Assembly (NCBI GenBank): GCA_947184155.2
Contig: CAMXCT020001136.1
Span: 403,501-467,500, forward strand
Origin: Cladocopium goreaui
Taxonomy: Eukaryota > Sar > Dinophyceae > Suessiales > Symbiodiniaceae
Length of the DNA: 64,000 bases
Direction: 5' to 3'
The position numbers and the translations under genes were made by a program. The notes under the pieces are model-generated. The model had not been told where the DNA came from and made no database searches. It worked only from the letters and a program-made list of their open reading frames with translations. This document shows positions 27 to 48,312 of this stretch, piece by piece. Within the stretch, counting starts at the first letter, position 1; every line of letters begins with the position of its first letter.

Positions 27-132
27 TACCCTCTGGCTATTTAACATAGCCATGGAAAATGGCCCATTATAGATGGTTTACCTATTGAAAAATGGTGATT
101 TTCCATGGCTTTGTTAAATAACCAAATGGTAA
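27..132. mobile_element. Stowaway-like MITE, copy A
   Basis: The sequence starts TACCCTCTGG and reads into a near-palindrome: the left arm (TTTAACATAGCCATGGAAAA) is matched inverted by the right arm (TTTTCCATGGCTTTGTTAAA). Six more copies with the same ends and core lie in the window. The TIR tip CCCTCTGG next to TA suggests a TA target duplication, as in Stowaway/mariner MITEs. It abuts the last recognisable carrier exon on the minus strand. Confidence 0.75.
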
Positions 133-6684: not shown

Positions 6685-9600
6685 TGAGCATCTGGCTCTT
6701 GAACCAGGAGACCGCATGTAGCCGAGTACCCTCAAAGGGACACCGGCCATGCATCACCAGGTAGTTGTCCAGGAGCACCATATCTCCCTCCCTTAGGCTG
6801 GGCATGGCTGGGCTCAACTCACAGATTCTGTTGCGTCTCGGATCCTGGACCCCTAGCTGAACAGACTGTAAGATCTGGGTGTGAAAATAGGATGCCCAAA
6901 AATCCCAGGCATGCTATAGGAAGAAGTGTACTAGAATCACTAGAACTTTCACAAATGAAAGTGGCATTAATTGAGACCTCCCATGGTATCCCCCTTCTTC
7001 GACCCATGGATGAAGTGATTTCCATCGACCCATCACTGAGCAGTGGGGCTCCATCTTCACCTTCTCAGCACAGTCCAAGGTCACTTTGTCCAGGTGCTCC
7101 AACCATTCCGTCTGAAGCGCTGTGAAGGCCGCAAAAGATGTTCAACTGAACGTGGTAATGGAAAAAATCCCCATGTATAGATGGTTTTCCCATTACAGCC
7201 TCCATCTATAGGGGATGATTTCGTGCCTATCTTAGCTATCTTGGCTTCATTTACCCAAAGACTTGCGGGACGGTGGACTTGAATCTCCGTGACTGCCTCG
7301 ATCTTTTCTCCATCATCGCCATAGAAGACATCCGTCTTGTTGATGCGCGACCTCGTTTTCAACAACACGGCGCTGTTATTGTTGCTCTCAACAACCCAGA
7401 AACAAGGAGGCTAAATGGATGGAGCAACAGCTCGCCGCCATTTCTGAGCTTCAAACGCACCGGTCGTCTCCTTGCACGAAAAGCTTGGGCAAAGGTGGGC
7501 ACCCGCCACCAATGATATGTTGGTGAATGTGTTCATATTAGACATTGGTTTCTTTGACCATCCACCATGAAGCTAAACACATGGTCTCAATTTATCTTAA
7601 TCCATGCCCAGTCTATTTCTAGTGTTAACCACGTTTACCGGATCTCCCCAAACCTTCTCCAATTTTACCACTACCTGACATTGGCTATGGCTACTTTTGT
7701 GGATATTTATGGACCTATAAATAGCGTGTCATCCCATTTATCTATCCGATATACCCAATATGTTTGATGGTTATATAATGTTATATATCATATATATATA
7801 TATATCATTGTATATTCTCATAAGACATCATGAGACCCTATAAATGATGAGTAATGATGTGTTTTTCATCCACACCTGCCATGTATATTGCTGGCTTGAC
7901 CCTTCCCCCTCCTGCGCTTCGCCGTAGACCTTCTCCCGCTCGCTGCGGAGGTGCTCGGCGTGCGAATGCATGGAGCCCCACCAGCATGGCTCGCCTGTGG
8001 CATGGTGTCGAAGCACCGGATATTGTGGCATCGCTCGGACCTGCGAAGCAATGGGGATGCTACTGTGACCGGTACTGGGATGTCACAATTGGTTGCTGGA
8101 CTTCTGAAAACCTCTGCGCTTAGACTTGACATCTCAAGGTGCACGCTATGTTCCAGCTGAACTGGATGGTTAGCACTATCTCACTAGACCATCCTACAGT
8201 AAGTTGCACAAACTTACAGTGAAAAAGGGCTCGTAAAGCCTAGGGCCTAGTGGGAGCATTAAACTGAACTGAATGCCACAGTTGTCCAGGCCACCATTCC
8301 CATTCCAAGTCCCCAGTGGGTGACCTGCAAAATTTTGCTGCCATCGTAGTCGGACTTTTCCCATCGAAGCTCAGTCTTGAAGTCAACCTGCTTTGGGCAA
8401 AGTCAGAGAAACGCCGGGAAGATTCTGGGCAAAGTGTGGGATATATTTTGCTCGATATCAATTGGGATATGTGTCTTTCTCTTGCCAAATTTGTCACATC
8501 AAGCCGGGCCGATCCGCCAAGGGACTTTCATCTTCAAGGCCTGGCGACAGGCAGATCGCTCTGGGTGAAAGTGTCAAGAAAAAACATCAACTCAAGCCCG
8601 GTGGCAGGCACGCATTGATTTGGTCAGTTCTGGTGATCAACTACAGCTGGATAAGTTACATTATATATATATATATTATATACATATATATATATATAAA
8701 TATGATAATCTATACATATAGTAATTCACTTACCTGAATTGTCATGCCATTTGGGGATGATGCCCGGTCCTAATCAACAACCACCTTGGCCCCGGCCTGG
8801 GTCATGGCTCCGTAGACCATAGGCTCCACCGCTGGCTGCACAAAATCTGGAAGTCCCCTTGGCCATGGCCGGGGCTGGGCTGGGCCGGGCTGGACATGGC
8901 GTTGGCTACGGTAAGCCCCATAGGTTGGGAACTTGGAACTTACAACTATGGAAAAAATAATGCTATATATATTATACATGTATCCACATTTTAACAAAAG
9001 AACAAATATCTTATATTTTTTTATAAGTGGAACTAGTATGGCTCACAGTTGAGAATTCTATCTACTACAATTGGGTTTGGATTTAGGGGTCAGATATGGT
9101 CAGGTCATGCCAGATTGCTTTGAATCTCCGAGCCGCTCAATGAAGCCCATGGGAAACTCAGCCGTGGAATAGACAACATCCTCAAGGCTGCGGAATGGTT
9201 GGACCATAAGTCTTGGATCCATTGAGACATCCTCGGCCATTCCGTTCATATCTCTCACATGTCTTCCTCGATCATCTTCATTTCTTCAGACGTAGAGGAA
9301 GATCTTTTTGAGTTTAGGATATTGCAGCAACGTTCGACTACTAGATCTACTAGGTAGATATCTTCAGCCCCCATTCTGCTCAGCCCTGGCTGCGAATCTT
9401 CGCCAAGCTGCTCGATTGTAGACTTTCGTCAGCCACTCCTGACCGACGAAAAGATGGAGCTGTGGAGCTCTATGGAGCTCCACACAGAGCTGTCAAGAAT
9501 TCATGGGTCATTAAATGTCCCCATGGGTCACATCACCCAACCATTAGGTATATGGTCTACTAGATGGCTACTTTTTTAGGCTAGGTGATGTCCAATATAC

Positions 9601-11339: not shown

Positions 11340-12900
11340 CTCCATCCTTTCAGCCAGCATCTCCCATCATTTTGAGGGGCGTCGCGCATCAAACCAGCGG
11401 AAAACCTTGTAGATGTCCGGCAGCCGAGAAGAGAAGAACTGACGCTGGCCCTGGGCGGCGATATCTTGGCAGATCGATATCGCTGATAGCTATGGCTATG
11501 GAATGCTATGGCCCGTTTATAGATGATTTACTGTACTTATACTATTCAAAGTGCGGGATTTTCCATGATGTTCCATTACCAGAGGGCATACCTACAATAC
11601 ATGTCCATTTTAAGATATTTCAAGATGGCAAGTTTGGGTGGTACTCCATTCATCTCCATTCTACAAAGCGGGCTTCATCTCTGCCTCGAGGTCCCCCTTC
11701 AGCTCTGGTGGCATCCGGATTTCCAAAGGACAGGCCTTCACCTGGCGGAGATCATCGCCACGGCCATCAATGGCCACCTGGATCACCCCGACAAAACCAG
11801 GGCCTTCATCTTCTCACGCTCGGCCTCCACATCAATGTCTTTCTTGCCTTGTGGAAACTCGAAATTTTCACTGCATCAAAATGATGTTCCAAACTTGCGC
11901 GGCAAAATCAATGATTATCAAAAAGAAGCAGCCATTTCTGGGGTTTTCAGGTCCATTCAGGTCCATTCAGGTCCATTAATGGTCCATTAAAAACCCATCT
12001 TTTTCTGAGTCCTGAAAATCCCTGAAACCTGTTTGCCCCACCGGCTCTCCCTGATCTGAGCCAAAGTTGCCATACAAAACGTATGGGCAATCAGCCAAGC
12101 CATCGGCGCAACGGACAACACGTGCATGCCTGGGAACCGAGTCACTGAAGCCCCCAACCGAACTAGGCCTCAAGTAAGTTACTATGTTCCAAAACACACA
12201 AAATATCAAGAGCTAACATGGCATTTTTGCGATGTTTGTTCCCCAACCGGTAGTCTAACATGCATGAAAGGATGATAAGGGATTGAGAATAAGCTTTATC
12301 ACAATCCTCGGCAGCCTCCCCATGGTTTGAAGCTTCAGCTCGCCAGGTTGCCGACGACCCTTCCGCTGCCATCTGCCAGCAGCCACCAACCCGGCTGCTG
12401 GCAGCGCCAGGGCGGCACCAACGTGGCCACGGGCAGCTCTGGCGCTCGTGGCCGGTTGCGCACCTGCCAACCATTGCAAAAAGGATGGCCAACCACGGAA
12501 AGGTGATTCGATTGACATCCCACCCGTCATGGACCGAAATGGGACTACAGCTGCGCCTGCGAAGCTGCTCTTATGCACCTGATTCGCAGTGATGGCAGGC
12601 CCAGAGGCAACAAAAGACCTCCCAGTCAGCTGCAAGGATCTGGGGGTCCAAAACAGAGACTGCCAGCATGGGTTACATGGGGTGCTTAATGGTCCCTCAA
12701 AAAAGAGAAAGTAGGTGAATGGTCCCACCCTTGATCACTGCAGCGCACAAAATATCCCGGCAGACATGGAGTTATGCCAAACCCTTCCAACCGGGTCGTT
12801 TCAATTCACTTCCACCATTCGCTTCGCTTGCGATTCTCTCTCAATCAACATGTTCATTTGTATACCTTTTGGTCAAGTGATTGAAAATCCAAGAAACAGT
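11340..12900 (-). other. Exon-like segments upstream of the dioxygenase core
   Basis: Four minus-strand segments read as protein. About 11375-11450, after a CCCAG acceptor, has FFSSRLPDIYKVFRWFDARR. About 11680-11800 has VIQVAIDGRGDD and PPELKGDLEAE. About 12040-12165 has SVPRHARVVRCADGLADC and ends in an AG|GTTTCAGG donor. About 12310-12480 is Ala/Trp-rich. They could be N-terminal exons of the dioxygenase gene or a separate gene; no family is recognised. Confidence 0.35.
11485..11590. mobile_element. Stowaway-like MITE, copy C (degenerate)
   Basis: It reads TATGGCCCGTTTATAGATG, then GGGATTTTCCATGATGTTCC and CCAGAGGGCATA, matching the family core and right end. The left end has decayed. It lies about 34 bp upstream (minus sense) of the putative acceptor at 11450/11451. 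Confidence 0.65.
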
Positions 12901-15699: not shown

Positions 15700-18600
15700 A
15701 GTCGTTCCCATGAGGTTCGAATCTCCATTCACAAGACATGGGCAAAAGCAAAATTTCGTCCTCAGTTTGTGCATCTGCAGCGCCAGCGACCACCATCCTC
15801 AATCCGCTCAGTCAAGACTCCAAGACAGGTTCAACTTTTTCATGACCTCGGCATCCTTCCAATCCAAAAAGCAAAACTTCACGGTTTTTCAGAGGATTTT
15901 CCCAGGATTTTTCTGGGATCCAATGGTCCAATCCTAGAAATTCCATCCATTTCCATCGCCATCTGCCACACCAAGGCCCCGTCGCAGGGGATGCACCTGT
16001 GCCCGCAGCCGCGATTGCCGCCACAGGCTCCAGGACCACCTTGATATCTCCAACTCTTCCCAACTGTTTCAAGATGTTTCGAGATGTTTCGAGATGTTTC
16101 AACAATCCAATTTTTGGGGAGTTGGTGAGTTGCTTTGGATGAAAGCCATATCTTCTCAGGTGTTCGGAAGTGGCCAAATGCTGTCCCAGAAGCTGCAAGA
16201 TGGGCAGAGACGTTGCTGCACTGCTGAGCCTGAAACTAACAGCACGGAGAACCCAAAGAAAATGTTCACCATCGTTGTGGAGCTCAGTGGAAACAGACCC
16301 GCAAAAAAAAAATGTGGGAAACCAGGACTCAAAGGATCTCAAAGTCGGAGATCTTTGGGCCCCAACTCTGCTTGCTGCCAAAGCAAAAAGGCCAATCTCC
16401 TGAGTCACCAGCAGTCACCGCAGTCGGGGCTGTTGCTGTTCCCATCCCATGATTTGGTAGCCAAGCTGCAACCAGCGCTTCATCTTGCTGCAAAGCCTTG
16501 AAGAGAAAACCCATGGAGAAATGGAGAAAATCCATGAAAATCTGTGGAGAAAAGATGAGAAAAGCCTGGTGGTTGATGCAAAAAAAACTTGCTGCCCTTA
16601 GGGTTCCAATATGTTCCAATGAGTGCATCAACCACCAGGTCTGAACGTTTAGCAGACTGGGCTGCAGACAGCTCGACCGGAGCCAGGGTTGTACTGACCT
16701 GGGTCGATGAGCCAAGATGAACCAATTGCAAGTTGGTGTGCAATGTTGACTGCCATCCCTTTCTATGCGTCATGCATCATTTTGCTTAATTCACACTTAC
16801 AGTTGAAAGTCCTGAGCTCCAAAAATTGCAAGCTCTCGATGCGCAAGACATTGGCAGCACAAGAGTGGGTTTCCCTACCGACATAGCTGGGTCCACAACC
16901 TGTGCCATGTGCCAGGCTGTGTCGGGCATCTCACAATGCGCAGAAACTGGGCTTGTCGATTCCCATCTCTTAAGCAATGTACAGGAAACTCCCTGCAAGC
17001 ACTGGAAAAAAAATATGGTTTCTTGATGTTTCTTGAAGTCTCTTGTAGATTTAATATATGGGTTTGTCTGAAAATAGTGTACCCCTAAACCCAATGGTTA
17101 ATGATCATTATCCCTATTAAATGTGCTATAATTGGGAATATACCCGTCGCTGGATCGCCTCCTCGTCGCTCATCAGCAGAATCTCCGAGGGTCCACTGCA
17201 GCGGTCCCCGCTGCGGTCCCCGCTCCGCGCGCTGCGCGCGCTGCGCACGCTGCGCGCAGAGCGGCTGCTGGGATAACTCCACGGTGCCGTCGGCCAAGGT
17301 GCGACGTGGGAGGGCCTGGTGGTGGCCATGGCCCCATGGCCCCGGCCTACCCTGTGTTGATCAAAGTTCTCAGTAACTTGGTGAAAATATGTGAAAATCA
17401 TCAAAATTATCAAAATGATGTTGTCAAATGATGAGTCAAATGTGTCCAATTGCAATCCCACCTGAGATTCCAGGGGGACGAGTCCGGCATCTCTGCAACC
17501 TCAGCAGCTGTCCTCTCAGATCCTCTCAGTGCATACCTGTAGTATCTGTAGCGTCATTGCCTGCCAAATAAAAATTCGTGGGTAGAAAGTAAGACTGCTG
17601 CTTCACATAGTAAAATGCTCTGGATGTCACATTGCATTGGCACTAAGATGAAATGTACAAAAACGTGCACTGCTCCCCATGTTCTCCCTGTAACCTTCCC
17701 CTGATGAAAAGAACCAAGGGGCAGGAGCTGCAAACATGGACGGCAGTGGCTGCAGAAGTGGAAGCGTCTCGCCACTGAGGTCAGTTTCTTTGCACATGAT
17801 CCTCCCCACGCAGCTCGGGGCCCAGAGCTTAACCCATCTTTGCAACCCAACAGCAGGTTCCAGGGTTCTAGTCCCAGACTCAGAGATTGAAACCCAACAA
17901 TCATGGCTGTTGGGAACTAACCAATGAAAAAATTGGCATTGGACATGATTAGGCTCATGGATCCACAAATGGTTTTTCAAATACCCAAGCCTACAAGACT
18001 GCGGCAATGTGGTTTTCAGTTGGCACCGTGGACTCCATGGACCCCTTCGACTCCTCCTGGCTTGGGTGCGAGTGAACCAATAGACAAGGCAGTCATGCGC
18101 CCGGGCCCATCTGCAGGCAGATACCATGGCCTTAGCAACCGATCAAATGAAGGTGGGTACCTTGGCAAATCTTAAATATCTTTGTAAAAAATAATATGAT
18201 GTTAGTAGTGCTAGGTGTTTAGTATAGTACATGATAGATCCGGAAGTTATGGCAAAATACTCAGTGGTACAAAACATATCTATCTATCTATATATATATA
18301 TACATACACCCATCCAGGGTTGACCTAGCGAGGTACGGCCCAAAGATTTTAGTGTCAACCGCGGACATAATGTTGCCTGGGCTGTCTAATTGAGGAGAGG
18401 GTGCGGTTTTAGGATAAAATTCTCACCTTTTGACTGGAACAGAATGGAAGTATACCAGTGTGCCCAAGAAAGATGTATGTATTTGACCAACCAGTATGTG
18501 GAATATCAGTTGAAAATGATTGAATGTGGATATACCCAATACAATCAATACACATATTAACATCTGCATGAACCCAAACAATATGTCTCCGTTTAAAAAG

Positions 18601-21526: not shown

Positions 21527-23485
21527 TTAGAAACAACTCACCAAAACCTCACCGCATTCCAGACTCCGCAAATGTGTTGGAAAATTCACGGTGTCCAGCT
21601 TTGGGAATGCAGCAAGAGCAAGGCTTTGGAGACCGTTTGGGAAGGACACACCCTCCATGCTCTGGTTGAACTGACTACCCAGAGTCAAGCTTTTGAGACT
21701 GCTGGGCCAGGTTACAGACTTCAGGCTGCAGTTGAACTGCTGACCCAGAATCAAATGTTGGAGACTGTCCGGCAAAAGGAAGTCTGTAAGGCTATGGTTG
21801 AACCGGCAACCAAACGTCAAACTTAGAAGCCTGTCTGGCAAGTGTACACCATGCATTGATTGGTCAAACTGATTTCCAAACGTCAAGTGTTCAAGCCTTT
21901 CGGGAAATTTAACATTGTCAAGACGCTGGTTGAACCAATCACCAAATGTCAAGTTTCTGAGGCTCTTCGGCAAGGTCACAAGGTCCAGACTCTGGTCAAA
22001 GCGAGCACCAAGAGTCAAGCATTGAAGACCACTTGGCCAATCTACAAGCTCGAGCTCTTTGTTGAATTCTCTGCCAAATGTCAGGCTTTGAAGACTACTT
22101 GGCAAGCACACATCATCCATACGTCGGTCGAAATTGGTTCCAAAAGTTAGGCTTTGGAGACCGCTTGGGAAAGCCACACCTTCCATGCTCTGGTTGAAGC
22201 GGCCACCAAAGGTCAGGCTTTGCAAACTGCTTGGCAAGTTCAGCCCCTGTATGTTGTGGTCAAAACGATCACCAAACGTAAGACTTTGGAGGCTATCGGG
22301 AAGGTGCACTCCCTTCAGACTCCGATTGAACCAATCACCAAGTTTCAAACTCTGGAGCTTGCTCGGAAAAGTCAGACCCTGGAGGGTCTGGTTGAACCAC
22401 TCACCTAAAGTCAGACTTTCAAGGCCATCTGGTAAAGTTACATTTTCCAACTTGTGGTTGAAGCGAGTCCCAACAGTCAATCTCCGGAGGCTGCTTGGAA
22501 ACTGCAGTCCGTGCAGAGCCTGGCTTGAAGGGCCCAGGATCAAGCCTGTGAGAGCACGGGGCATCACTGTACCCAGGGGCTGGTTGAAGTGGAAACCGAA
22601 CGTCAAAGTCTGTAGAACGTCTGGCAAGGAAAGGCCTTCTAACTTTTTATCAAATCGACTGCCAAATGTCAAGATGCGAAGCCCACTGGGCAAGGTCACA
22701 CCCTCGAGGCTCTGGTTGTAGTCTCTACCAAAAATAAGGCTTTGAAGACTGCCTGGCAAGTTCACATCCTGCATTCTCTGGTCAAAGTAATCTCCAAATG
22801 TCAAACTGCGAAGCTTACTTGGAAACTCCACCCTGTTCAGTGCTTGGTTGAACCAACTGCCGAAAGTCAGACTTTGAAGATTGGCTGGCAGGATCACTCC
22901 ACTCAAGTCCTGGTTGAACTCCGAACCCAAAGTCAAGTTTTGAAGGCTACTTGGCCAGTTCACCCTCTCCAAATTTCTGTTGAATGACCTTCCAAAGGTC
23001 AAGCTTTGCAGATTGGCTGGCAAGTTCAGGCTGTCCAAGGTTGTGTCAAAGTGATCACCAAACGTCAGTCTTTTTAGGCTTCTGGGAAGATTGTGCAGGA
23101 TCGGATGTGTGATGCCTTTCAGCTCGGTCACGCCATCGCAGACGTTTTCATCTTCAGGTACAATCTGTCCGTCAAACCATTGCCAAGCTGCATATACACT
23201 GGTCGGGGTATAAGTACAGGACAAGGTAATGTGGCCCACAAGACCTTGCTGCAATAAGGTCTTGTTCAAGTGGATTGCGCCGGAATCTGAGTGTGTCAAG
23301 GACACCGATGCCCCTGGCTTCAGAAGCGCATCACAGATCATGTCACGGACTTCGCGACCAAGTGCAGAGGTGGGGACATTCAAATTGACTCCTTCCCCAC
23401 TCAGGAGGACGACCTGCCAGGGTCCAAAATGTGGCCATCTACACGCAGCAGTCCTCTTTGCAATGCCTACAGTACCACGGATCAT
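21527..23485 (-). CDS. FNIP-repeat protein with a ubiquitin-like N-terminal segment
   Basis: One uninterrupted frame encodes about 652 residues from the first in-frame ATG (23485). The frame stays open further upstream, so a 5' exon is possible. After an N-terminal part of about 90 residues whose pattern (VVLLSGEGVNLNVP...LGREVRDMI) resembles a ubiquitin-like fold, about 23 repeats of 22 residues run to the end. Their consensus is PxxLQSLTFGxxFNxxLxxV. This is the FNIP repeat, a leucine-rich-repeat relative known from Dictyostelium and greatly expanded in dinoflagellates. Such arrays are binding surfaces; the partner is unknown. One repeat (the ninth) is a residue short and has lost the FN pair, and the last two are degenerate. 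There is no signal peptide or membrane span. The lack of introns contrasts with its neighbours and suggests a retrocopy or recent repeat expansion. Confidence 0.85.
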   Translation of the reverse strand: MIRGTVGIAKRTAACRWPHFGPWQVVLLSGEGVNLNVPTSALGREVRDMICDALLKPGASVSLTHSDSGAIHLNKTLLQQGLVGHITLSCTYTPTSVYAAWQWFDGQIVPEDENVCDGVTELKGITHPILHNLPRSLKRLTFGDHFDTTLDSLNLPANLQSLTFGRSFNRNLERVNWPSSLQNLTLGSEFNQDLSGVILPANLQSLTFGSWFNQALNRVEFPSKLRSLTFGDYFDQRMQDVNLPGSLQSLIFGRDYNQSLEGVTLPSGLRILTFGSRFDKKLEGLSLPDVLQTLTFGFHFNQPLGTVMPRALTGLILGPSSQALHGLQFPSSLRRLTVGTRFNHKLENVTLPDGLESLTLGEWFNQTLQGLTFPSKLQSLKLGDWFNRSLKGVHLPDSLQSLTFGDRFDHNIQGLNLPSSLQSLTFGGRFNQSMEGVAFPSGLQSLTFGTNFDRRMDDVCLPSSLQSLTFGREFNKELELVDWPSGLQCLTLGARFDQSLDLVTLPKSLRNLTFGDWFNQRLDNVKFPERLEHLTFGNQFDQSMHGVHLPDRLLSLTFGCRFNHSLTDFLLPDSLQHLILGQQFNCSLKSVTWPSSLKSLTLGSQFNQSMEGVSFPNGLQSLALAAFPKLDTVNFPTHLRSLECGEVLVSCF

Positions 23486-23974: not shown

Positions 23975-25952
23975 TGGGAGCTGACCAACGAAGGTCCCAG
24001 AGTTGACCATGAAGTCCAAGTCCCGGATGTCGAAATCCAACTCCCTCACCATGATGGACCCAAAAACCACAGCTGGATCTCACCACTTCACAGGTATTCC
24101 AAACCAATCATTGGTAATATATCCATGTATATCCCAATGTTTCAAACTGTTATAACATGTTATAAGTTGTAACATGTTATAACTTCATAACTGGTATGCC
24201 ATTTCTCAATCTACCCCTGGCAGTGGCCCTTCCCACAACCCCTTCCCAGGCCATAGACCTCTCCAGCATTTCGCTGACAAGCGCAGTCGTTGATATCGTG
24301 CAGCTCGCCATGTGCTGGCCTCCCGATGAGTTGTTTGGGTCGATCATTCCCCCGGAATCTCGGAACTTCCAGAACTGATGGGAAAATTTAGAGAAACCCA
24401 TCAGAAACCTCTATTTTTCCTGGTAAAAACTATGGTTTCCGGCAGATTGTCGGAATCCAGCCATTGATCCTTTCAACTCCACGTGGTGCTACCAAATGGG
24501 TCTGGGTCAAACTTGAGGTCCTGAAAAAAAAACGAAAGAAAGAAGGGTTAGTATGGTGGTAAACCATCCTATCAAAGCCAAATAAAGAATACTGTACCAA
24601 CGCAGGAAACATGAAGTTGTGTATCCCTCTTTTTTGTTTTTATTGATGCCTCAAATATGTATTTCGTGGTGCCTTAAATATTTTTTGAACATGCCAATAA
24701 TAAACTCAATAGTGGGATGGTCGCTTGTTGGGTTTACCATATTACGAAAGGTTATATAGTAAAAAGTTGTAAGCCCAATCATAAACCATCCAAAATGGTG
24801 GTTTATTCTTGGGTATGCTCCTGTTAGGGATTAGAGTTGGTACAGCAATAATAAACCAGCTATATCTTGATGGTTTATACCACCCATCTATGGTAAATTT
24901 GGGGATGGTGGATCCTACTCTACCAACAAACTTCTAGATAATGTTTTTTCTTGAAGTCCAATTACTTTGCATATTTTGGGGCTAATTATCCCATTCACAG
25001 GTCCATATGTTGGTGGCCATTGGTTACCCAAAATCGGTCGCCAACTGGGCAGCTCACCCATCGCTTCACCAGGATCTGCACCAGCCGAAGTTGCTTCAGC
25101 TCTAACACCTGGCACGATATGCAAAAACCGTGGCGTCTCACAGGCCAACTTCCGGATCCGCAAAAAACAAAAAGGCATGATGATATACATCTATGTCATG
25201 TTAGGTATAATATATGTATATATATATATACATACACGTGTATGTACAAATGTGTATATATCTATATATACATATATATATATACATATATATATATGCA
25301 CATACATACAAGTGTATATATACACATATGTACATACACGTGTATGTATATATATACATGGGTATACAAAGATATGATTATATAGATATACATCATTATC
25401 TTATGATTGTTAAAAGGAAAGAAGAAACACCACCCACTTTCCTGGCTCAAAAAGAATTGTCACATGTGTAGCACCTGATGGGCTGCTCGGGCACTTCTGG
25501 ACACTCGCTGCCATGCTTTGAGCACTTTGGCCCTGTGGCGACATCCGCAACTTCAAGGCTTGACCCTTGGGTTTTCTTGCAACTTTTTTTGGAAGCTATG
25601 GAAAATCACCATTTTTAATGGGAAAATCCACTATAAATGGTCATTTTCAATAGCTATGTTAAATTACCACCAGAGGGTAGAGAGTGGAGTTTGGAAGTGA
25701 GCATGCATCAAAGTGGGAACGCAAACATGCCATTTTGACCTAAAGACTCCAATCCACATCAGAGTCCACATCAGGTCTTTGAATCTTTGAGCTAACAAAA
25801 AGAGATGCAGGCCAAAGGAATGCATAGGAACCAAGCCATGAGATGTTGTATTATTTAAATAAGCATTTCTCTGAGGTTATGTGTGTGTGTGTCATGTATC
25901 ATGTGTATATATATATACAGTATATATTACATCATCAGCATCATCATCATCA

Positions 25953-25987
<35 letters not shown>

Positions 25988-27670
25988 ATCGTCATCATCG
26001 TCATCATCGTCATCATCATCATCTAGATATATATATATACAATATGCATGTACATATGTATATGTATATATATATGATTATGTATTGTAGATGCATCTAG
26101 ATGGAACTTTTGGCACCCCCCAATTAGTCTTTCATCGGCACCTCTGCACGGAGTGCAGTTTGTCCTCCAGGATGGCCATGCGTTCGGAGATCCTGACAAG
26201 TTGAAACCCCAGACTGGGCCCCAGATATGACCAATGAAAATATATCAACAAAACTGGGTGCCAAAAATTGTATATCCAAATCCCACCAGAAGTTTTGTAC
26301 CCCAAAAAGATTTGTTTAGGACTTGTTCAAAAGAGAAACGGCCAGAATCCGCAGCTTCGAAACTGCCAATCTGCAGCCTTTCAAGATATGCCTTCATATC
26401 TCCTGGCATTTCGTTTCCAAAGACATTTGCGCTGCCGCCCTTTTTCCCTCAGGACGTCAAGGTGTTGACCTGGGAGTGGCTGGGTGCTGGGGCAATGTGA
26501 GAATCCACAGCTCCTGGTCTGGTTAGTACCTCAAAGCGACGAGGTAGCCAACTTCAAATCCATGAAAAAATAAAATTCACACCTACCAACAGGAACTATT
26601 GGGGTGTTTCATCCGGTTTCATCCTGCTGTGTTTTGCATTGCTGGCGTCCCAACCAGCTCTGGTAGCCATTTCTCGCATCCGTCGAGGTCAGGTTGAGGC
26701 ACTGCAGGGAGGATTGCGTGGTGTCGTGCATGGCCATGCATGGCCCATTTATAGATGTTACCTACTAAAAATGGTGATGTTCCATAGCTATGTTGAAATT
26801 GCCAGAGAGTAACATCAATTCACCAAGAACATCCGCTTGAGCCATGTAGTTTTCAGCCCCAAGAACCTCCACCCTCTGCGGATCGAGGAGAAAGATCGGC
26901 TTCCTGTTTCCAGAGTCGGATTTCAGTTAAGACCTGGGCTGATGCGCTGTGCGAAAAGCACGGAGCTCTGCCACCATACGGGGCACATCGAGGCACTTTT
27001 TTTGAGGGCAAAGTGACTCAAAATGGAGGATGAAATACATGAAATGCAAATGAAATGCCACCAAAATGATGTCTACTAAGTCTAGAATAGTCTAGATACC
27101 TCCTTCCCATTTTGTGTCATTTTGCCAAGCGGATCCAAGCGGCATGCTGCATCAGCTCCGGATCTTCGGAATTGGCCTTAATGTCGCTCTCCAACTCCTC
27201 AAGCAGAGTCTTCACCTTGAAATTCACATCCTTCTGAGTCACGATGAACGGCCTCGGCCATGTGGCCATGGTGACTGGAGGAACTAGTCTTGACTAAAGG
27301 TTCAATCCAACCATCTGGGGTGGAAGTTGCTGATCTTTCAGACAGTATAGTCAAGTCATAACTCAACTTAAGTCAGCTTGTTGATGACCAATTGAGACAG
27401 CATGAGACAGCCAAACCAAATCCTCCAAGCTCAGCATTTCCAAAGATTTCCAGAGCATCCTTCAACTCTGAGTTCCTGGCACAATGTCCAGGTACTGCCC
27501 GGAAAAGAGTAGCATCTCAGCCACCACAGAGAACTCCCGCACACGCAACGCCATGTCCTCGGGGGCAACCGGCAACCCTGGCCATGTGGTGTATCCTGTA
27601 TCCCTCAAAAAATCGTGGGAAAAACTGACATCCGCAACATGGAGATCATCTCCGATATCCCATCAGTAGT
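23975..27670 (-). CDS. Unassigned exon series
   Basis: Defined pieces: 26824-26903 (ACAG acceptor; [25 protein letters not shown] donor), followed across a 122-bp intron by an exon starting at 26701 ([18 protein letters not shown]). Others: about 27490-27595 ([20 protein letters not shown]); about 27125-27275, which could open with ATG ([20 protein letters not shown]); about 26305-26400 ([20 protein letters not shown]); about 26130-26215 ([20 protein letters not shown], then a stop); about 25480-25558; about 25015-25150; about 24220-24370; about 23975-24075 ([20 protein letters not shown]). The AEMLLF piece could be the missing C-terminal part of RMC1, but I cannot prove it. No family is otherwise recognised. 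Confidence 0.4.
25212..25385. repeat. (TA)n/(CATACA)n microsatellite
   Basis: Alternating TATATA, CATACA and CGTGTATGTA units. Open frames through it are low-complexity and not genes. Confidence 0.9.
25592..25679. mobile_element. Stowaway-like MITE, copy D
   Basis: AGCTATGGAAAATCACCATT is matched inverted by TCATTTTCAATAGCTATG, followed by CCAG-AGGGTA. It lies about 34 bp from the putative minus-strand acceptor at 25558/25559. Confidence 0.75.
25935..26025. repeat. (ATC/GTC)n trinucleotide microsatellite
   Basis: Runs of CATCAT and CGTCATCGTC, flanked by TA repeats. His-rich or Ser-rich frames here are artefacts of the repeat. Confidence 0.9.
26730..26812. mobile_element. Stowaway-like MITE, copy E, filling an intron
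   Basis: It reads CATGGCCCATTTATAGATG, then ATGGTGATGTTCCATAGCTATG and CCAGAGAGTA. In minus sense it starts 11 bp after the GTGAAT donor at 26823 and ends 28 bp before the CTGCAG acceptor at 26702, so it makes up about 83 of the 122 intron bases. Confidence 0.75.
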
Positions 27671-35525: not shown

Positions 35526-35685
35526 TAACCCTTATATTAAGTTGCCTTTCTAACCCTTATACTGCAAATTCATTACCATTACACGCATGCTTTTCTAACC
35601 CCATGGGGAATCTAACCCTTAAATAAAAAATTGTTAACCATTACTAGGTGTACTAACCCTAACCACTAACCTTACTAGGTGATTT
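35525..35685. repeat. Degenerate CTAACCCT-type repeats
   Basis: CTAACCCTTAT, TCTAACCCTTA, CTAACCCTTAA and CTAACCCTAACCACTAACC recur over 160 bp. They resemble decayed telomere-type repeats (dinoflagellate telomeres are of the TTTAGGG kind) and form the left border of the minisatellite block. Confidence 0.6.
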
Positions 35686-35689
35686 GTTT

Positions 35690-35865
35690 TTTTTTCCTTT
35701 TTGTTCCTCTCCTTTTTCCTTTTTGTTCCTCTCCTTTTTCCTTTTTGTTCCTCTCCTTTTTCCTTTTTGTTCCTCTCCTTTTTCCTTTTTGTTCCTCTCC
35801 TTTTTCCTTTTTGTTCCTCTCCTTTTTCCTTTTTGTTCCTCTCCTTTTTCCTTTTTGTAATATAC
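35690..35865. repeat. 22-bp pyrimidine minisatellite, block 1
   Basis: About 7-8 copies of CCTCTCCTTTTTCCTTTTTGTT. As 22 is not a multiple of 3, all three frames stay open, giving artefact peptides (FLFVPLL... on plus, KGEEQKGK... on minus). A degraded T-rich stretch (35866-36140) joins it to block 2. Confidence 0.95.
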
Positions 35866-36139
35866 CTTTTTCATTTTGTTACTATAATTTTACTTTTTGT
35901 TCATATAATTTTAATTTTGTTAATATAACTTTAATTTTGTTCATATAATTCTTTAATTTTGTTAATATAATTTTTACTTGTGTTTAATATATTTTTCCTT
36001 TTGTTCCTATCCTTTTCCTTTTTGTTACCTCGACATTTTCCTTTGTGTTCATCGCCTTTTTTCCACTTTTGTCACTATAATTTTGCAATTGTGTTCATCT
36101 ACTTTTCCTTTTTGTTCAATACTTTTTCATTTTTGTTAA

Positions 36140-36440
36140 TAGAACTTTTCCTTTTTGTTCCTCTCCTTTTTCCTTTTTGTTCCTCTCCTTTTTCCTTTTT
36201 GTTCCTCTCCTTTTTCCTTTTTGTTCTTCTCCTTTTTCCTTTTTGTTCCTCTCCTTTTTCCTTTTTGTGCCTCTCCTTTTTCCTTTTTGTGCCTCTCCTT
36301 TTTCCTTTTTGTTCCTCTCCTTTTTCCTTTTTGTTCCTCTCCTTTTTCCTTTTTGTTCCTCTCCTTTTTCCTTTTTGTTCCTCTCCTTTTTCCTTTTTGT
36401 TCCTCTCCTTTTTCCTTTTTGTTCCTCTCCTTTTTCCTTG
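36140..36440. repeat. 22-bp pyrimidine minisatellite, block 2
   Basis: About 13 copies of the same 22-bp unit. Two adjacent copies share a TGCCTC variant and one has TTCTTC. The plus strand is almost pure pyrimidine, so triplex (H-DNA) formation is possible. Confidence 0.95.
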
Positions 36441-36567
36441 GTTGGATCCAAACTAGGAGGTCAAGGACCAAACTGAGAAGGCAGTTGCTACTTGCAGCTA
36501 AGTGGGCAACCGACAAAGCAGGCGGCAGTCAAGAATCATCTGCGTAGCTTGAGTTTCTGGCCACTCC

Positions 36568-37598
36568 CGTCAAATTTCCAGGTTCCCCGTCAAATTTCCA
36601 GGTTCCCTGTCAAATTTCCAGGTTTCCCGTCAAATTTCCAGGTTTCCCGTCAAATTTCCAGGTTTCCCGTCAAATTTCCAGGTTTCCCGTCAAATTTCCA
36701 GGTTTCCTTGAGTTTCCATTCAGATTTCGAAGTTTCCTTCAGCTTCCCGTCAAATTTCCAGGTTTCCCGTCAAATTTCCAGGTTTCCCGTCAAATTTCCA
36801 GGTTTCCGTCAAATTTCCAGGTTCCCGTCAAATTTCCAGGTTTCCGTCAAATTTCCAGGTTTCCGTCAAATTTCCAGGTTTCCCGTCAAATTTCCAGGTT
36901 TCCCGTCAAATTTTCAGGTTTTCCAAGTTTCCCATCAGATTTCCAGGTTTCCCGTCAAATTTCCAGGTTTCCCGTCAAATTTCCTGGTTTCCCGTCAAAT
37001 TTCCAGGTTTTCCAGGTTTCCCGTCAAATTTCCAGGTTTCCGTCAAATTTCCAGGTTTCCCGTCAAATTTCCATTTCCAGGTTTCCCGTCAAATTTCCTG
37101 GTTTCCCGTCAAATTTCCTGGTTTCCGTCAAATTTCCAGGTTTCCGTCAAATTTCCAGGTTTCCGTCAAATTTCCAGGCTTCCGTCAAATTTCCATTTCT
37201 AGGTTTCCCGTCAAATTTCCAGGTTTTCCAGGTTTCCCGTCAAATTTCCAGGTTTCCGTCAAATTTTCAGGTTTCCGTCAAATTTCCAGGTTTCCCGTCA
37301 AATTTCCAGGTTTCCCGTCAAATTTCCAGGTTTCCGTCAAATTTCCAGGTTTCCGTCAAATTTCCAGGTTTCCCGTCAAATTTTCAGGTTTTCCAAGTTT
37401 CCCATCAAATTTCCAGGTTTCCCGTCAAATTTCCAGGTTTCCCGTCAAATTTTCAGGTTTCCCGTCAAATTTCCAGGTTTCCGTCAAATTTCCAGGTTTC
37501 CCGTCAAATTTCCATTTCCAGGTTTCCCGTCAAATTTCCAGGTTTCCCGTCAAATTTCCAGGTTTCCAGTCTAATTTCCAGGTTTCCCGTCAAAGGCC
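36568..37598. repeat. 20-bp minisatellite TTTCCCGTCAAATTTCCAGG
   Basis: About 50 copies of 19-21 bp. Higher-order structure is visible: copies with CCGTC and CGTC alternate in runs, and the interruption TTTTCAGGTTTTCCAAG occurs twice, at about 36909 and 37381. The 236-residue plus-strand frame over it is an artefact. Confidence 0.95.
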
Positions 37599-37745
37599 AA
37601 AATTTTGATGTTAAGATCAAAATTTGGATGTCAAGGCCAAAATTTGGATGTTAAGGCCAAATTTTGGATGTTAAGACCAAAATTTGGATGTTAAGGCCAA
37701 AATGTGGATGTTAGGGCCAAAATGTGGATGTTAAAGGCCAAGTTT
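37599..37745. repeat. 20-bp minisatellite AAGGCCAAAATTTGGATGTT
   Basis: About 7-8 copies, directly abutting the previous array and of the same period but unrelated in sequence. Confidence 0.9.
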
Positions 37746-38165: not shown

Positions 38166-38299
38166 GTGCGTCTCTGCTGAATTTGGTCCTCAAGGCACTG
38201 AACGAATACATATGCATAGTGTTTTTGATGTTTTTGCGTTAATTGTTAATATAAAAGCCTACGTCAACATGCCTGTGGTGTATCACATTCAGAAAGATA

Positions 38300-39867: not shown

Positions 39868-42477
39868 TCACTTGATGATGAGTTTCTTGTGTTTGTAATC
39901 CGGGTTTCGGCCCTTGTAGTTGTCAAAAAGCTCTGTGAGTTTCTGGCAATAGACGGCATGCCACTTCTCGACATCCTCCTTAGATCCACACAAGATTCAG
40001 CATATTAGCATGATGCATGGATTTGGGAACTTCAGATCTTGAAAAAACCTGAAACTTACATTGAGTCTTAGGCTGTGTACTGCGGCAATGAAGATTGTGG
40101 CGATCAAGTCTCAAGGGTTAGCACCACCCACGTCACAGCTTCTGTGGCTGCATTTCTGTTGCAGCTGCAACATCACTGGACATTCTCATATCTAGCATGT
40201 ATACAATAAATGTGTATGTTCTAGAGTTCTAAAATGTAGGCATATACAACGGCCCTCACGTCGTCTTTCTGCTACAAGACTTCATGGGATACGCCGATTT
40301 TGTCGAGTTGCTGCGCTTGGGTTTTCAATGTGTGGCATCCCCAGTGGTCTTCCACGTACATAAGTCATGTGCCTGGCACGCTGAGCGATCACCATGACAA
40401 AGGGAGTTCAGGCATGCTCTGATTGTATATAAATATAACGGAATACACATATACGTACGTATATGTGTATATACATATTTATATACAATATATATATATA
40501 TACATATTTATATATATATATACATTTATATATATATATTACAGATTTATATAATGTATATATACACACATATAATCATATATATGATTGTATCTGACAT
40601 TATCTGTATAGTCAGTGTTTGGGACTTGGCAATACCTCTAAACACCGGCGAATAGAGACGGGAGACGGATTAACCTCTGAACACTCACCGTGTCTGTTTG
40701 CGGCAGAGGTACACAGGATTTGGCATCGGCAGACCAAATCTCCCCCAGAAAAACGTCACCTAGGGCAGACTGACTCAATTTGGGAGCACTAGGGCTCACC
40801 TGGTATTATATATATATATACATACATGTATGTGTATATATATATATATATATGTGTGTGATATGAACAATCTTATATATATATATACAATATATATATA
40901 TATATTATATTATATATATCTTATATATATATAATTATATATATATTATTGTATATACTACATCCCATCTCTGTTGGACCATTTCGTATCATCTGCCCAG
41001 CTGCCGACATCCCTAAGGATCGGCTCAGAGATGCCAATGGTCCCCAGGCCAAGACCGAGAGCACCGTGGTATTCCTTGGCAGTGCTGGGCCAACGAAACC
41101 CATAGGTTTAACCAACAACAATTTGGTTAGAGAACCAACATTCTCATGATATGATATTATATAATATGTATGGATTGGATATTGTTTTTAAAGATTATAA
41201 CTTAACTATGGATGCGTTGTTTAAAGATTATAATCAGCATATGATTCATGTGATCTTCTGCGTGTCTGAAGTAGCTACTGAATACGGAAGATGGTGATTA
41301 GCCAATGGATCTAGGGATAGCCTATTTTCAGACGGACACAGTTTTAAAAACCATCAACACATGGATACCAATGGCAGATTCAACTTGAATTTTTAAAAAA
41401 AGGCTGTGTAAGTTCAAGTGATGTGAATATGCTGAATGGTCCTACTGCTGCAGAGAGACCCAAACATGTAGACGGGCACCACATCTGCACCAGACCGCAA
41501 GGCCAACTTGATGAACCTCAGCTGCCACGTGACGCTGAGCATCGCTGAGCATCTGTCCCCTGGAAGCCAAAGAAATGCATAGCTAGGGCTCAACACCCTA
41601 GTATCCCAGTGATCGGAAAAACAAAACGACTAACATGAAAGAGTGTAAATTGCCATGGTCATCTATCCATTTGGGATGGTCATCTATCATCATCTATTCA
41701 TTTCGATGCTTCATCTTGACACAGATATGTTCCTTGCATGCTGGGTGGCCCTTTCCGTTCCTTCAGGAAGACCACCTCCTCCTTGGGACTGGAATAGAAG
41801 AGTTCGATCATGCCACCGATGTACAGCACAAAGGTACCTTGATGGAAAATGCCGAACATCCGTGGTTTTTCATGGCCTTTCGATATAGGTTGAGTTCTAT
41901 TTCCAACATGCAAGTAGCATTAGTAATTTAGGGCTCAAATATTGGCACCACCTGGGGTAAGTAGTCTATTGTGAGTCGGCACTGGTGATATTTTTGTTGG
42001 GCCTGTATTGTATCGGGATCGGTGACATCGCTGACCCCTAAGGGGCTGCAAAACGACTACGTCGACTACGTTCCACGGGTGCCTCGAGGCTTGGACAGTC
42101 GCTTCGACAAGGTCGAACTGCTGGCATCCTTGGCGAATCAGCATCCAGGACTAGCCTCTGGTAAACTAACATAGCTATTGAAAATGGCCATTTATAGTTA
42201 GTTTTCCCATTAAAAATTGTGATTTTCCATAGCTATGTTAGTTTACCAGAGGGTAAGTGAAGCCAAAACAGGGTCCAAGTCTCGCCCCCAAATCTGGTTT
42301 TTGCCCCAAAATCTGGTTCCTAAAAGTGAATTGCCAAACTGGGGAAATCCCCCAGTTAAAAACACAAACCAAACCAACTTCCTCGGAATTCCAAGGATCA
42401 ATGAGACCAAACACAGCCAAGACATCTTTCAAGATAGGGAAGATTTTCACCACCGAGGCAGCCGCTGTGGGTGCTTC
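39868..42477 (-). CDS. DGAT2: DGAT2-family acyltransferase, seven C-terminal exons joined in frame
   Basis: Diacylglycerol acyltransferase 2 makes triacylglycerol from diacylglycerol and acyl-CoA at the ER and lipid droplets. Exons: 42400-42477 (SVVKIFPILKDVLAVFGLI), 42083-42128 (DASSSTLSKRLSKP), 41750-41837 (FVLYIGGMIELFYSSPKEE, then FLKERKG), 41460-41516 (FIKLALRSGADVVPVYMFG), 40997-41074 (LSVLAWGPLASLSRSLGMS), 40372-40312 (TYVRGRPLGMPHIENPS) and 39978-39868 (EKWHAVYCQKLTELFDNYKG, to the stop). Phases match at every junction. Donors: four GC, one GT, one apparently GA. The RKGFIKLAL...VPV.. FG block and the C-terminal ENP...KWH..Y..KL..LF..YK block are DGAT2 hallmarks. The usual PGG is IGG here. 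Likely N-terminal exons lie at about 42680-42710 (MTHGARDGFGAALAE), 43190-43270 (FADVLRIPKYFHYEEYHETT) and 43850-43930 (hydrophobic). The HPHG motif was not found. Confidence 0.85.
40430..40565. repeat. (TA)n-rich tract in a DGAT2 intron
   Basis: TATATACATATTTATATA units. A second tract, at 40803-40960, lies in the same intron between exons 40372 and 40997. Confidence 0.85.
42154..42255. mobile_element. Stowaway-like MITE, copy F (best preserved)
   Basis: Almost perfect inverted arms: CCTCTGGTAAACTAACATAG at the left and CTATGTTAGTTTACCAGAGG at the right, then GTA. The core is ATTGAAAATGGCCATTTATAG against CCATTAAAAATTGTGATTTT. It lies inside a 271-bp DGAT2 intron, 25 bp before the acceptor at 42129. 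Confidence 0.9.
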
Positions 42478-44399: not shown

Positions 44400-46830
44400 T
44401 ATATATATATGTGCATGTATACACTAGCCAATTGGGGCTCATCATTTAACCCAAAGGGATTGGTTGGTTCTGGAAAAATTCAAAGGTTGGGGATCATCAG
44501 CCAAATGTCCCTAAGGAGAAACAAGAAGGCCATTCAGGAATGGTCAAAATGTGACTTATTGGGGATCGGCTATCAACATGAACAATTCATGATGATTCTT
44601 GGCAAAGCGGTGCCACCCCAGCAAACTCAGACTTGGATGTATAGACCTTCCCTATCCCTGTTGTTTCTGTTTGCATGGTTTCAGATCCCAGAAAAATGGA
44701 CCAGAAAGGATGGGTCACTTGTTTCCCAGCCAGTCGATATGTTTGCCGGTGGCGAATCGGCTGCGATCGAGAAGCAAAGCTGGACCCAGGTGGTAGACTG
44801 CGAGTGGGCTTGTCGAGCACCATGGTGGCGAGTGGCGATAGTGGCAATGGCGGTGGCAAATTGGTGTCCAATCGCAAATGGACTCAGGAAATTGGCATTA
44901 CAAACGCTCTCCAGAAACTGTTGTAGGAATCGCATAGATTGAGAACTGAGAGCCGTGATCTGTCTGGATTTTCGCAAACCCCCGATTCCAATTGAGTCTT
45001 GCTGCTTCATGTTCAGCCTACGTCAGCTGAAAGAGCTGCAGGCCAAGCTTCGAATCATTGGCAGATGCAGCGCAAGCTACTGGAGACAAGACAAAATGTG
45101 GAATAATTGGAGTAATTGGCTTCTACTAATTACAAGTATCAAGATGTGTTAAATCTGCTTGTAATTAGTGGGCGAAATTGGCTCCAATTGCTCTACCAGT
45201 TTCACCGTGCCTGGATGTGAAATTGCGCACAAACCTGAACAGCTTGGAGGCCACTTGAAGCTTCCCTTTGATCTATAATCAGTCTAGCCTCTCCAAAGTG
45301 AAGCATTGAAGGACGTCATTTCGTGAACCAGATCAATATATATATATCATATATCATATATCATATATATAATATAATATAATATAATATAATATAATAT
45401 TATATAATATTATATTATAGTATATTATATTATATATATATAGCATGTTCCTTTTCGAGTGAAAGTACTGAATTAGATTGAAAACGATTGAAATATGGGA
45501 GATACTTCAATTTATGGTCATCAAATGGTGTCGAAAATGATCTGCATTTTTGGGTTCAATATTTGTGGCACACCCATATTAGTACTATGATCAAAAGACG
45601 ATGTAGAGTGTAGATGGGGTATGGTCATCCATCCCATCATGATCCATATTAATTGGCCATCATAATTCCCTTATGGATTTTCATGACCATGCCCCCATTT
45701 TTATAGGGCAATTTACATCGGAGTTTCCCCCGTTTTGACCACCTAGAGCTGAAGTGAAACATTGACACGATGCGTTCCGCCTTCTTGATGAGTCGTTTGG
45801 CGCTGTGACCGGCAGCCAGCGCATGCCAGGCGGCTGACACCCTGCCCAGGAGTTGAAGCATCATGGCCAAAGAACAGGCGAAACAACCAAAACTCAAGGT
45901 TCATCCACTTAATCCTAACGTTACATAACTATGTTACATAATGTTACTTCCATAATGTTACATAGTGTTAATAAAATGCTACTATATAATGTTATATATA
46001 TAATGTTGATGATTTTGGATGATACAACTGAGCACTCATGAGTTTTCCGATTCACCTTTTAACAAAACCAGAGCTGCACCTGGCCAAGCGCTTGTGTCGA
46101 AGCCACCTTTTGGCCCAAAAACAAGGGGTGCGGATCGGGGATCAAATTGGGTCCTTTGTGGCATCCCTCACCCTGGCATCATCTGAAATCCCAAGCCCTG
46201 GCTCTATCCGCGTTTCGCAGTTCACTATCATCATTCAACTGCCATCTCAGCATTGTGAAAAAATGCACAGAAATCACTGAAATCACCTTCATTTCCCACC
46301 GGAATGTTCCATCACGAACACATGGCTTACTCTGAAAATAGGGCATACATGGGTATATACCGTATATACCCCCTAAATCCACGGGTTCATCTTCATTTCT
46401 CCATCGATTTTCGCTCCAAAACTGGCCATCACAACTTGGCCCCCAGCTGCTCCAGCTGCTCCAGGGACGAAGCCGACTCATCGATCTCCTCCAAGCTGGA
46501 GAGCAGCTGCCAGTGCTGAAGCTCCGCATCATCCTGGTGTTTGATGATTCGACAATGGCCATTGAAATAGTGGATTTTCCCATTGAAAATGGTGGATCTT
46601 TCCATAGTTATGTGTGAATTTACCAGAGGGTATCCCAGTGCATCCCTCTTAAAACCCAAATCAGTTGAAACATTTTGAAACTTGCAGGTGCCCTGCGACC
46701 AAAGTGAAAAAATGGATCACCCCAGAGCCTCCATCTGAACCGAGGACAAGGAGCACATGGAACCCATGGGCCGGAAGGGGCCCTGAGCAGGTCGGATTCC
46801 CAAGACACTAAAGCAAGTCCTCCTATTTCG
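44400..46830 (-). other. Unassigned exon-like segments
   Basis: Minus-strand pieces: 46430-46533, after an ACACCAG acceptor, reads AELQHWQLLSSLEEIDESAS, then a second acidic helix and a stop, so it may be a gene's 3' end. About 45700-45870 (LAMMLQLLGRVSAAWHALAA, then a basic helix) is also plausible. The 44600-44940 region is open on both strands and I cannot choose a strand. A TATAA-type microsatellite fills 45339-45443. Confidence 0.3.
46551..46632. mobile_element. Stowaway-like MITE, copy G
   Basis: GACAATGGCCATTGAAATAG, then TGGATTTTCCCATTGAAAAT, TTTCCATAGTTATG and TTTACCAGAGGGTA. It lies about 17 bp before the minus-strand acceptor at 46534/46533. Confidence 0.75.
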
Positions 46831-47206: not shown

Positions 47207-48312
47207 TTTTGGCCCTGATCTGTCTGACGAGGTGTCAGCATGCGGTGCTCAGTTCTATCATTGAGACGTTGTTACTTATTGGATCATCATATTGGGGCTG
47301 AGTGCACAAGCAGCTGACGACATCTCATACAGCCTTCAAACCCAAATTCAACAAGCCACAAGTTGCAGACAGATGCTGCTATGATTGACAAAATCAAGTC
47401 CATGCAGTGTGTCTTTTTGGCCCTAATCAGTCTGGCAAGATGTCAGCATGCGGTGCTCAGTTCTATCATTGAGACGTTGTTACTTATTGGATCATCATAT
47501 TGGGGCTGAGTGCACAAGCAGCTGACGACATCTCATACAGCCTTCAAACCCAAATTCAACAAGCCACAAGTTGCAGACAGATGCTGCTAGGATTGACAAA
47601 ATCAAGTCCATGCTGTGTGTCTTTTTGGCCCTAATCAGTCTGGCAAGATGTCAGCATGCGGTGCTCAGTTCTATCATTGAGACGTTGTTACTTATTGGAT
47701 CATCATATTGGGGCTGAGTGCACAAGCAGCTGACGACATCTCATACAGCCTTCAAACCCAAATTCAACAAGCCACAAGTTGCAGACAGATGCTGCTATGA
47801 TTGACAAAATCAAGTCCATGCTGTGTGTCTTTTTGGCCCTAATCAGTCTGGCAAGATGTCAGCATGCGGTGCTCAGTTCTATCATTGAGACGTTGTTACT
47901 TATTGGATCATCATATTGGGGCTGAGTGCACAAGCAGCTGACGACATCTCATACAGCCTTCAAACCCAAATTCAACAAGCCACAAGTTGCAGACAGATGC
48001 TGCTATGATTGACAAAATCAAGTCCATGCTGTGTGTCTTTTTGGCCCTAATCAGTCTGGCAAGATGTCAGCATGCGGTGCTCAGTTCTATCATTGAGACG
48101 TTGTTACTTATTGGATCATCATATTGGGGCTGAGTGCACAAGCAGCTGACGACATCTCATACAGCCTTCAAACCCAAATTCAACAAGCCACAAGTTGCAG
48201 ACAGATGCTGCTAGGATTGACAAAATCAAGTCCATGCTGTGTGTCTTTTTGGCCCTAATCAGTCTGGCAAGATGTCAGCATGCAGTGCTCAGTTCTATCA
48301 TTGAGACGTTGC
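47207..48312. repeat. 208-bp tandem array, about 5.3 copies
   Basis: The word GTCAGCATGCGGTGCTCAG begins at 47234, 47442, 47650, 47858, 48066 and (with one change) 48274, an exact 208-bp spacing. Central copies differ only at scattered single bases, for example GCTATGATT against GCTAGGATT and CATGCAGTG against CATGCTGTG. The first copy's left end is more diverged and the last copy is cut about 40 bp in. All frames are closed, so the array is a satellite or encodes RNA. It carries no recognisable 5S, U6 or spliced-leader sequence. Confidence 0.95.

Follow-up and report, generated by a model that had tools for sequence, protein, structure and literature searches.

MITEs of the Tc1/mariner type, among them Stowaway with its plant examples, are short, non-coding and palindromic, duplicate a TA target and reach very high copy numbers. 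The family described here was noticed in a window of 64,000 nucleotides of Cladocopium goreaui DNA (the whole stretch analyzed, C1136:403501-467500), and it has in common with these elements the short non-coding palindrome, the TA duplication and the very high copy number. It differs from Tc1/mariner-type MITEs in its end tip, CCCTCTGG, and no partner transposase was found among eight loci of 3.2-3.4 kb with DDE_3 matches, none of these matches being enclosed between family ends. A resemblance to Stowaway in particular is presumed.

The introners of Symbiodinium microadriaticum, as they appear in the available text of PMC9860276, have 4-bp target duplications (TSDs) and terminal inverted repeats (TIRs), include the 3′ splice site and extend almost to the splice site at either end. 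Introners in other dinoflagellates were treated by Roy et al. 2023, as cited in the available text of PMC11453091. The present family has TIRs, target duplications and a location in introns in common with dinoflagellate introners, whereas its duplication is TA and its copies lie well inside introns or to one side of them. Dinoflagellate surveys apply the term 'introner elements' to introns with inverted repeats near both ends (PMC7789003, PMC10666404); in the available text of these two surveys the label denotes a repeat pattern within introns, with no demonstration of intron creation, and an intron like that around copy E, described below, might be counted there.

The evidence points to a MITE that was probably inserted into TA by a transposase made elsewhere and whose checked copies lie in longer introns or beside non-coding DNA, while family-wide creation of introns by the element is not supported.

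The element family and its copies in the window

A profile search of the 64,000-nucleotide window recovered seven family copies (A, B, C, D, E, G and K). Alignment of copies with their own reverse complements gave a palindrome of ~104-112 bp with the ends TACCCTCTGG and CCAGAGGGTA, and the tip CCCTCTGG was counted 10 times in the window against 2.2 expected occurrences. Copies A (27-131, plus strand) and B (5342-5453, plus strand) are complete and match profile positions 1-106; A has a 100% identical copy on contig C1065, and B lies at the TA of a presumed minus-strand donor. Copy D (42153-42255, plus strand, profile 2-106) is near complete and has the left end TAGCCTCTGG. The left end is missing from copies K (11492-11587, plus strand, profile 21-105) and G (46550-46632, plus strand, profile 29-106), and one end is missing from copy C (25593-25679, minus strand, profile 1-86). 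Copy E (26729-26810, plus strand, profile 20-105 of 106) is degraded, A-like and without its left end. The first-pass annotation of this DNA had all copies sharing CCCTCTGG next to TA, which was too strong: an end is aberrant in E, K and D, and one end is absent in E, G, K and C. It had also placed C, D, F and G 17-34 bp from putative acceptors, a weak argument, since such motifs are common by chance; the 34 bp to one side of a position drawn at random from the window contained a YAG in 60% of cases, a CAG in 46% and a YYNCAG in 16%. Copy A had been said to abut a carrier exon; the carrier match, at 178-285, falls below the curated cut-off (Mito_carr, E 0.0044) and is separated from the end of A by at least ~42 bp.

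The assembly searched comprises 1,165,616,438 bases in 6,202 contigs; L-numbers below denote individual loci examined and C-numbers its contigs. An exact 24-base end sequence had 7,366 matches in forward and 7,354 in reverse orientation, 14,720 in total, a figure that covers this one exact sequence, with other end variants outside the count, and that does not equal the copy number, since a palindromic copy may match at both ends. The same 24 bases read backward, as a control, gave 0 matches in the 1.17-Gb assembly. The TA target duplication was seen directly in a filled/empty pair, in which locus L096 on C1065 holds TA, a complete copy and TA where the window has the empty target GGAGGC-TA-AATGG (GGC-TA-AATGG, 7411-7416, plus strand). 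Among 133 complete copies, T was the third base outward from the TA in 51%. A TA duplication and a third-base T bias are features that fit a Tc1/mariner-type element.

The palindromic 104-112-bp copies are short, have terminal inverted repeats and are without a transposase gene. The family is a very abundant non-autonomous palindromic DNA transposon (MITE), with a transposase that we infer to be of the Tc1/mariner type, and it is an apparently new family of an ordinary, known kind, TA-targeting MITEs, amplified to enormous numbers. It did not appear in the titles or abstract openings listed by a keyword-based literature search.

Some variation was observed among copies and their sites. A family member of 214 bp (L008:1392-1602) has an internal unit of ~49-50 bp repeated head to tail. 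The ends in L009, L017, L019, L022, L025 and L028 differ from the usual tip, and some read TACCCGGCCTGG or CCAGGCCGGGTA, so that the family may have two kinds of end. ATCCCATTAAATCCC-type repeats were enriched in the first 45 bp beside copies (e.g. L004:1159-1501, L020:1715-2000), as if elements often landed in this simple repeat.

GC-rich stretches beside the copies

A first, search-chosen set contained 160 copies in 245 kb, 116 of them complete. The GC content around the 116 complete copies was 0.37 adjoining the element, 0.43-0.49 at ~45-150 bp and 0.37-0.42 beyond 165 bp, and this hump was visible in each of the four search-chosen groups; in 2352 AT-matched windows GC rose only from 0.41 to 0.43 and was then level. 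For each copy the hump was one-sided, the correlation of the two sides being -0.21. In the zone of the peak, set at 30-150 bp from the element, at least one side had a GC content of at least 0.5 in 62% of 91 copies, and both sides had at least 0.48 in 8%. Farther out, a rich side was present in 28% of 80 copies at 180-280 bp (p 8e-6, from rounded percentages) and in 36% of 77 at 300-400 bp. The AT-matched windows, drawn partly from the study window, which is more GC-rich, had a rich side in 46% of 1502 cases and two in 13%, so the contrast with these controls is smaller than that with the copies' own farther flanks. GC islands were not in excess, being present in 78 of 188 element flanks (41%) and 625 of 1353 control flanks (46%), and their start positions were similar in element and AT-matched control flanks.

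A second set was drawn from 40 of the 100 places listed by an end-sequence search, on contigs C2-C4 in contig order with some passed over. Its 69 copies, 47 of them complete, displayed the same hump with a correlation of sides of -0.26; a rich side was found in 20 of 34 copies and two rich sides in 2 of 34, whereas farther out a rich side was seen in 4 of 25 copies (180-280 bp; p 0.0012) and in 6 of 28 (300-400 bp). Here the contrast is with the copies' own farther flanks, and the AT-matched control belongs to the first set. The counts leave out L001 (the same as the window), L029 (half N) and any copy whose measured zone contained a further element or ran into the end of the locus. The near-duplicates L051 and L077 were left out of the 4-mer and splice-motif, per-copy GC and second-MITE analyses, and L090-L092 and L095 of the last of these.

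In L053 and L015 the GC-rich stretch is part of an exon, as it probably is in L087 and L026; beyond these few loci its exon nature is putative. Open-frame counts and a codon score gave no excess in the GC-rich zone over shuffles or farther zones, although the codon score is weak, since the L053 exon itself scores z 0.03. In splice-motif counts, acceptor-like motifs were slightly and unevenly in excess in the outward direction. Comparison of flank ORFs with Pfam (94 of 102 ORFs by our count, 131 found in all, near flanks only) gave two matches below the cut-off, to a nucleoside transporter and TMEM14, and two weak Rossmann matches, and 1 of 16 chosen ORFs matched a solved structure. HemD and prenylcysteine oxidase, names considered for other ORFs, found no further support and were set aside.

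It is quite conceivable, if on balance improbable, that the GC-rich neighbor is a compositional or repeat feature of insertion sites and not exon. The flat open-frame and codon scores are consistent with this, as are the equal frequency and position of GC islands in the AT-matched control, the 98 of 286 flanks that have sequence in common with another flank, and the copies that are nested in other repeats. However, real exons are among the rich stretches (L053 and L015, with L087 below the cut-off), the common flank sequence has no common offset, several CpG-bearing 4-mers are enriched and not one repeat, and the codon score missed the L053 exon too. The earlier claim that copies sit close to exons stands in part: the mostly one-sided stretches 30-150 bp out in both sets and the few proven exons speak for it, while AT-matched windows are exceeded by a modest margin and the GC-island count gave no excess, a result that counts against the placement claim.

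Copy E and its putative intron

Copy E was matched by the family profile with an E-value of 3e-10 and is closest, by alignment, to an A-like copy; ~17-20 bp of its left end are unrecognizable, and its right tip reads CTCTCTGG. The putative minus-strand intron around it measures 122 bp (26702-26823), with a GTGAAT donor at 26823 and a CTGCAG acceptor ending at 26702. On the minus strand, from 26823 to 26702, the sequence reads G/GTGAATTG...CCTCCCTGCAG/TGCC (slashes mark presumed splice sites), and the exon edges at the putative junction are ..GTTCTTG and TGCCTCAACC. The two sides join into one open frame. The upstream side recurs on contig C1065, a near-duplicate, where the few differences in the proposed exons are silent by our own reading; the counterpart on C1065 is N beyond 26758, i.e. 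from inside the element on. Searched against the genome, the joined protein matched itself and C1065 only and no element-free paralog was recovered; a longer joined protein had no match among solved structures, and Pfam gave around E a low-complexity match alone, below the cut-off. The downstream exon (26602-26701) is accordingly termed a candidate. An alternative GC donor, CTCTG/GCAATT, possibly lies inside the end of the element.

The description of copy E as lying in an intron with clean splice signals was borne out as regards its family membership, the donor and acceptor and the joined open frame; E is, however, incomplete at its left end, and the downstream side is a candidate. E reads as an aged copy with end decay, lying in a putative intron of small size. 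Outside the element this intron has 11-13 bp and 27-28 bp, perhaps too little to make up an intron, which counts against the preferred reading. Because this remainder is so small, and smaller still when the lost left end is counted, an accidental gain at E alone is considered, in which an ordinary MITE entered an exon and flanking cryptic sites were recruited. We regard this as rather unlikely, given the candidate status of the downstream exon, the identical look that a later deletion within a longer intron would have, and the genome search, which gave no element-free relative.

Introns with both ends placed

In the available text of PMC9860276, an introner is recognized by repeat similarity that starts no more than 5 exonic or 10 intronic bases from both splice sites. 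This arrangement was found in none of the four introns in which both ends were placed (E, L053, L015 and L026), with splice sites read from the DNA itself. The L053 intron is 378 bp long, of which 44 bp separate the donor from the element and 230 bp the element from the acceptor, and its two joined exons match a concentrative nucleoside transporter (6ksw, E 1.4e-9) over nearly the whole joined sequence. In L015, the intron measures 989 bp, the element lies 14 bp from the donor and 879 bp from the acceptor, and a phosphate transporter is matched by the joined sequence of three exons (E 4.4e-6). The 277-bp intron of L026, with the element 54 and 119 bp from the splice sites, is accompanied by a weak stomatin-like match (QmcA, E 0.024). 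All three greatly exceed the element in length. The element ends contain GT and AG; the splice sites lie outside the element in all four placed introns; at copy B the donor GTA is possibly shared with the element. Paralog searches found no element-free paralogs of L053, L026 or L015.

Sites without the element

Joined flanks were searched for 23 copies and 24 more, with the best 40 scored candidates considered for each. Among the matches listed, one clear gene relative with an empty site was found, that of L087; L074, L076 and L067 had relatives in repeats only (L067 by hit positions only), and the near-duplicate found for L089 was filled. The relative of L087 is L092, in tandem 21 kb away. 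Their ~600-bp flanks are 97.3% and 99.5% identical, with 0 differences in the 168 positions of the exon segment, and L092 has a TA microsatellite where L087 has the element, between the same non-coding flanks. The element-free site is a non-coding repeat and not a joined exon. The exon of L087 is TMEM14-like (Pfam E 1.8e-4, below the cut-off), and its intron is presumed, since the next exon was not found.

At the site of copy B, the near-duplicate L096 on C1065 is without the element, and the presumed GTAAAT donor and the proposed exon edge are kept; the exon here is our own reading, made without homology. Near-identical duplicates with and without the element provide a clean test of intron making. 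The near-duplicate on C1065 is either a second haplotype or a segmental duplication. Its identity to the window is 94.3% in L029, 91-96% over long collinear pieces of L096 and L097 and 85% over a short piece of L098, and in the stretches compared little of C1065 matches C1136 past the counterpart of window position 38175. Copy D was not among the best 40 scored matches in C1065, and neither D nor G was found in the C1065 stretches compared.

Opposite window positions 5342-5453, L096 carries a different MITE of ~110 bp (L096:1721-1831) with the ends GGGTGTGTCTGAAAAT and GGGTTTGTCTGAAAAT, so that in near-identical DNA two MITE families occupy almost the same place, a few bases apart. Relatives of this second MITE lie in the window at 17059-17145 and 57161-57229. 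As a placement control it was too rare, with 6 ends.

Origin and placement of the copies

We propose that the element would be pasted into TA dinucleotides by a transposase encoded elsewhere and that copies are presumably removed together with their host intron, as read from a few loci. On one side of many copies, at a distance of 30-150 bp, lies a GC-rich stretch that resembles exon, a placement that is probably due to insertion favoring accessible DNA close to exons or to copies surviving better in such places. The checked copies, inside longer introns or beside non-coding DNA that also occurs without them, do not have the look of intron makers. Should the one-sided placement hold when exons are defined by RNA, this would be a DNA transposon settling at exon edges in a lineage with reported true introners, and would offer a place to watch how a MITE might change into an introner.

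A stronger form, in which the family homes to exon edges by preferring TA sites no more than a few tens of bases from a splice site, be it donor or acceptor, with E as a stage between MITE and introner, is improbable; our estimate for it was lowered because the GC-island count showed no excess. If true, it would make the family almost harmless in introns, now and then becoming nearly the whole intron, as at E.

That the family makes introns by insertion into exons, spliced via signals in or beside its ends with E as a decayed example, is very improbable: although the E intron is mostly element, the consensus can be read to supply a donor (CTCTG/GTTATG) and an acceptor (TTTACCAG/AG) in either orientation, and TSD- and TIR-bearing introners are reported in the available text of PMC9860276, an introner is expected to have exon on both sides and most copies lack this look (both sides GC-rich in 8% of 91 copies, below the 13% of control windows, and in 2 of 34 of the second set), none of the four placed introns has the element reaching near both splice sites, and element-free sites are not joined exon. 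The proposal of the first-pass annotation that the elements created the introns thus finds no backing in these both-sided counts, in the placed introns other than E, which are much longer than the element, or in the element-free sites, which keep non-coding flanks (L092) or a presumed donor (L096), and it is contradicted at the sites that allowed a check. From one window alone, an extremely abundant MITE can easily pass for a maker of introns. The MITE inserted into TA by a transposase made elsewhere is the reading that we prefer.

Other features of the window

A long open frame on the minus strand at 21539-23158 has repeats of the type LPxxLQSLTFGxxFNQ, of leucine-rich-repeat-like appearance. 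Large tandem arrays are present at 35603-36529 (22-bp unit), 36535-37600 (19-20 bp) and 47207-48338 (208 bp).
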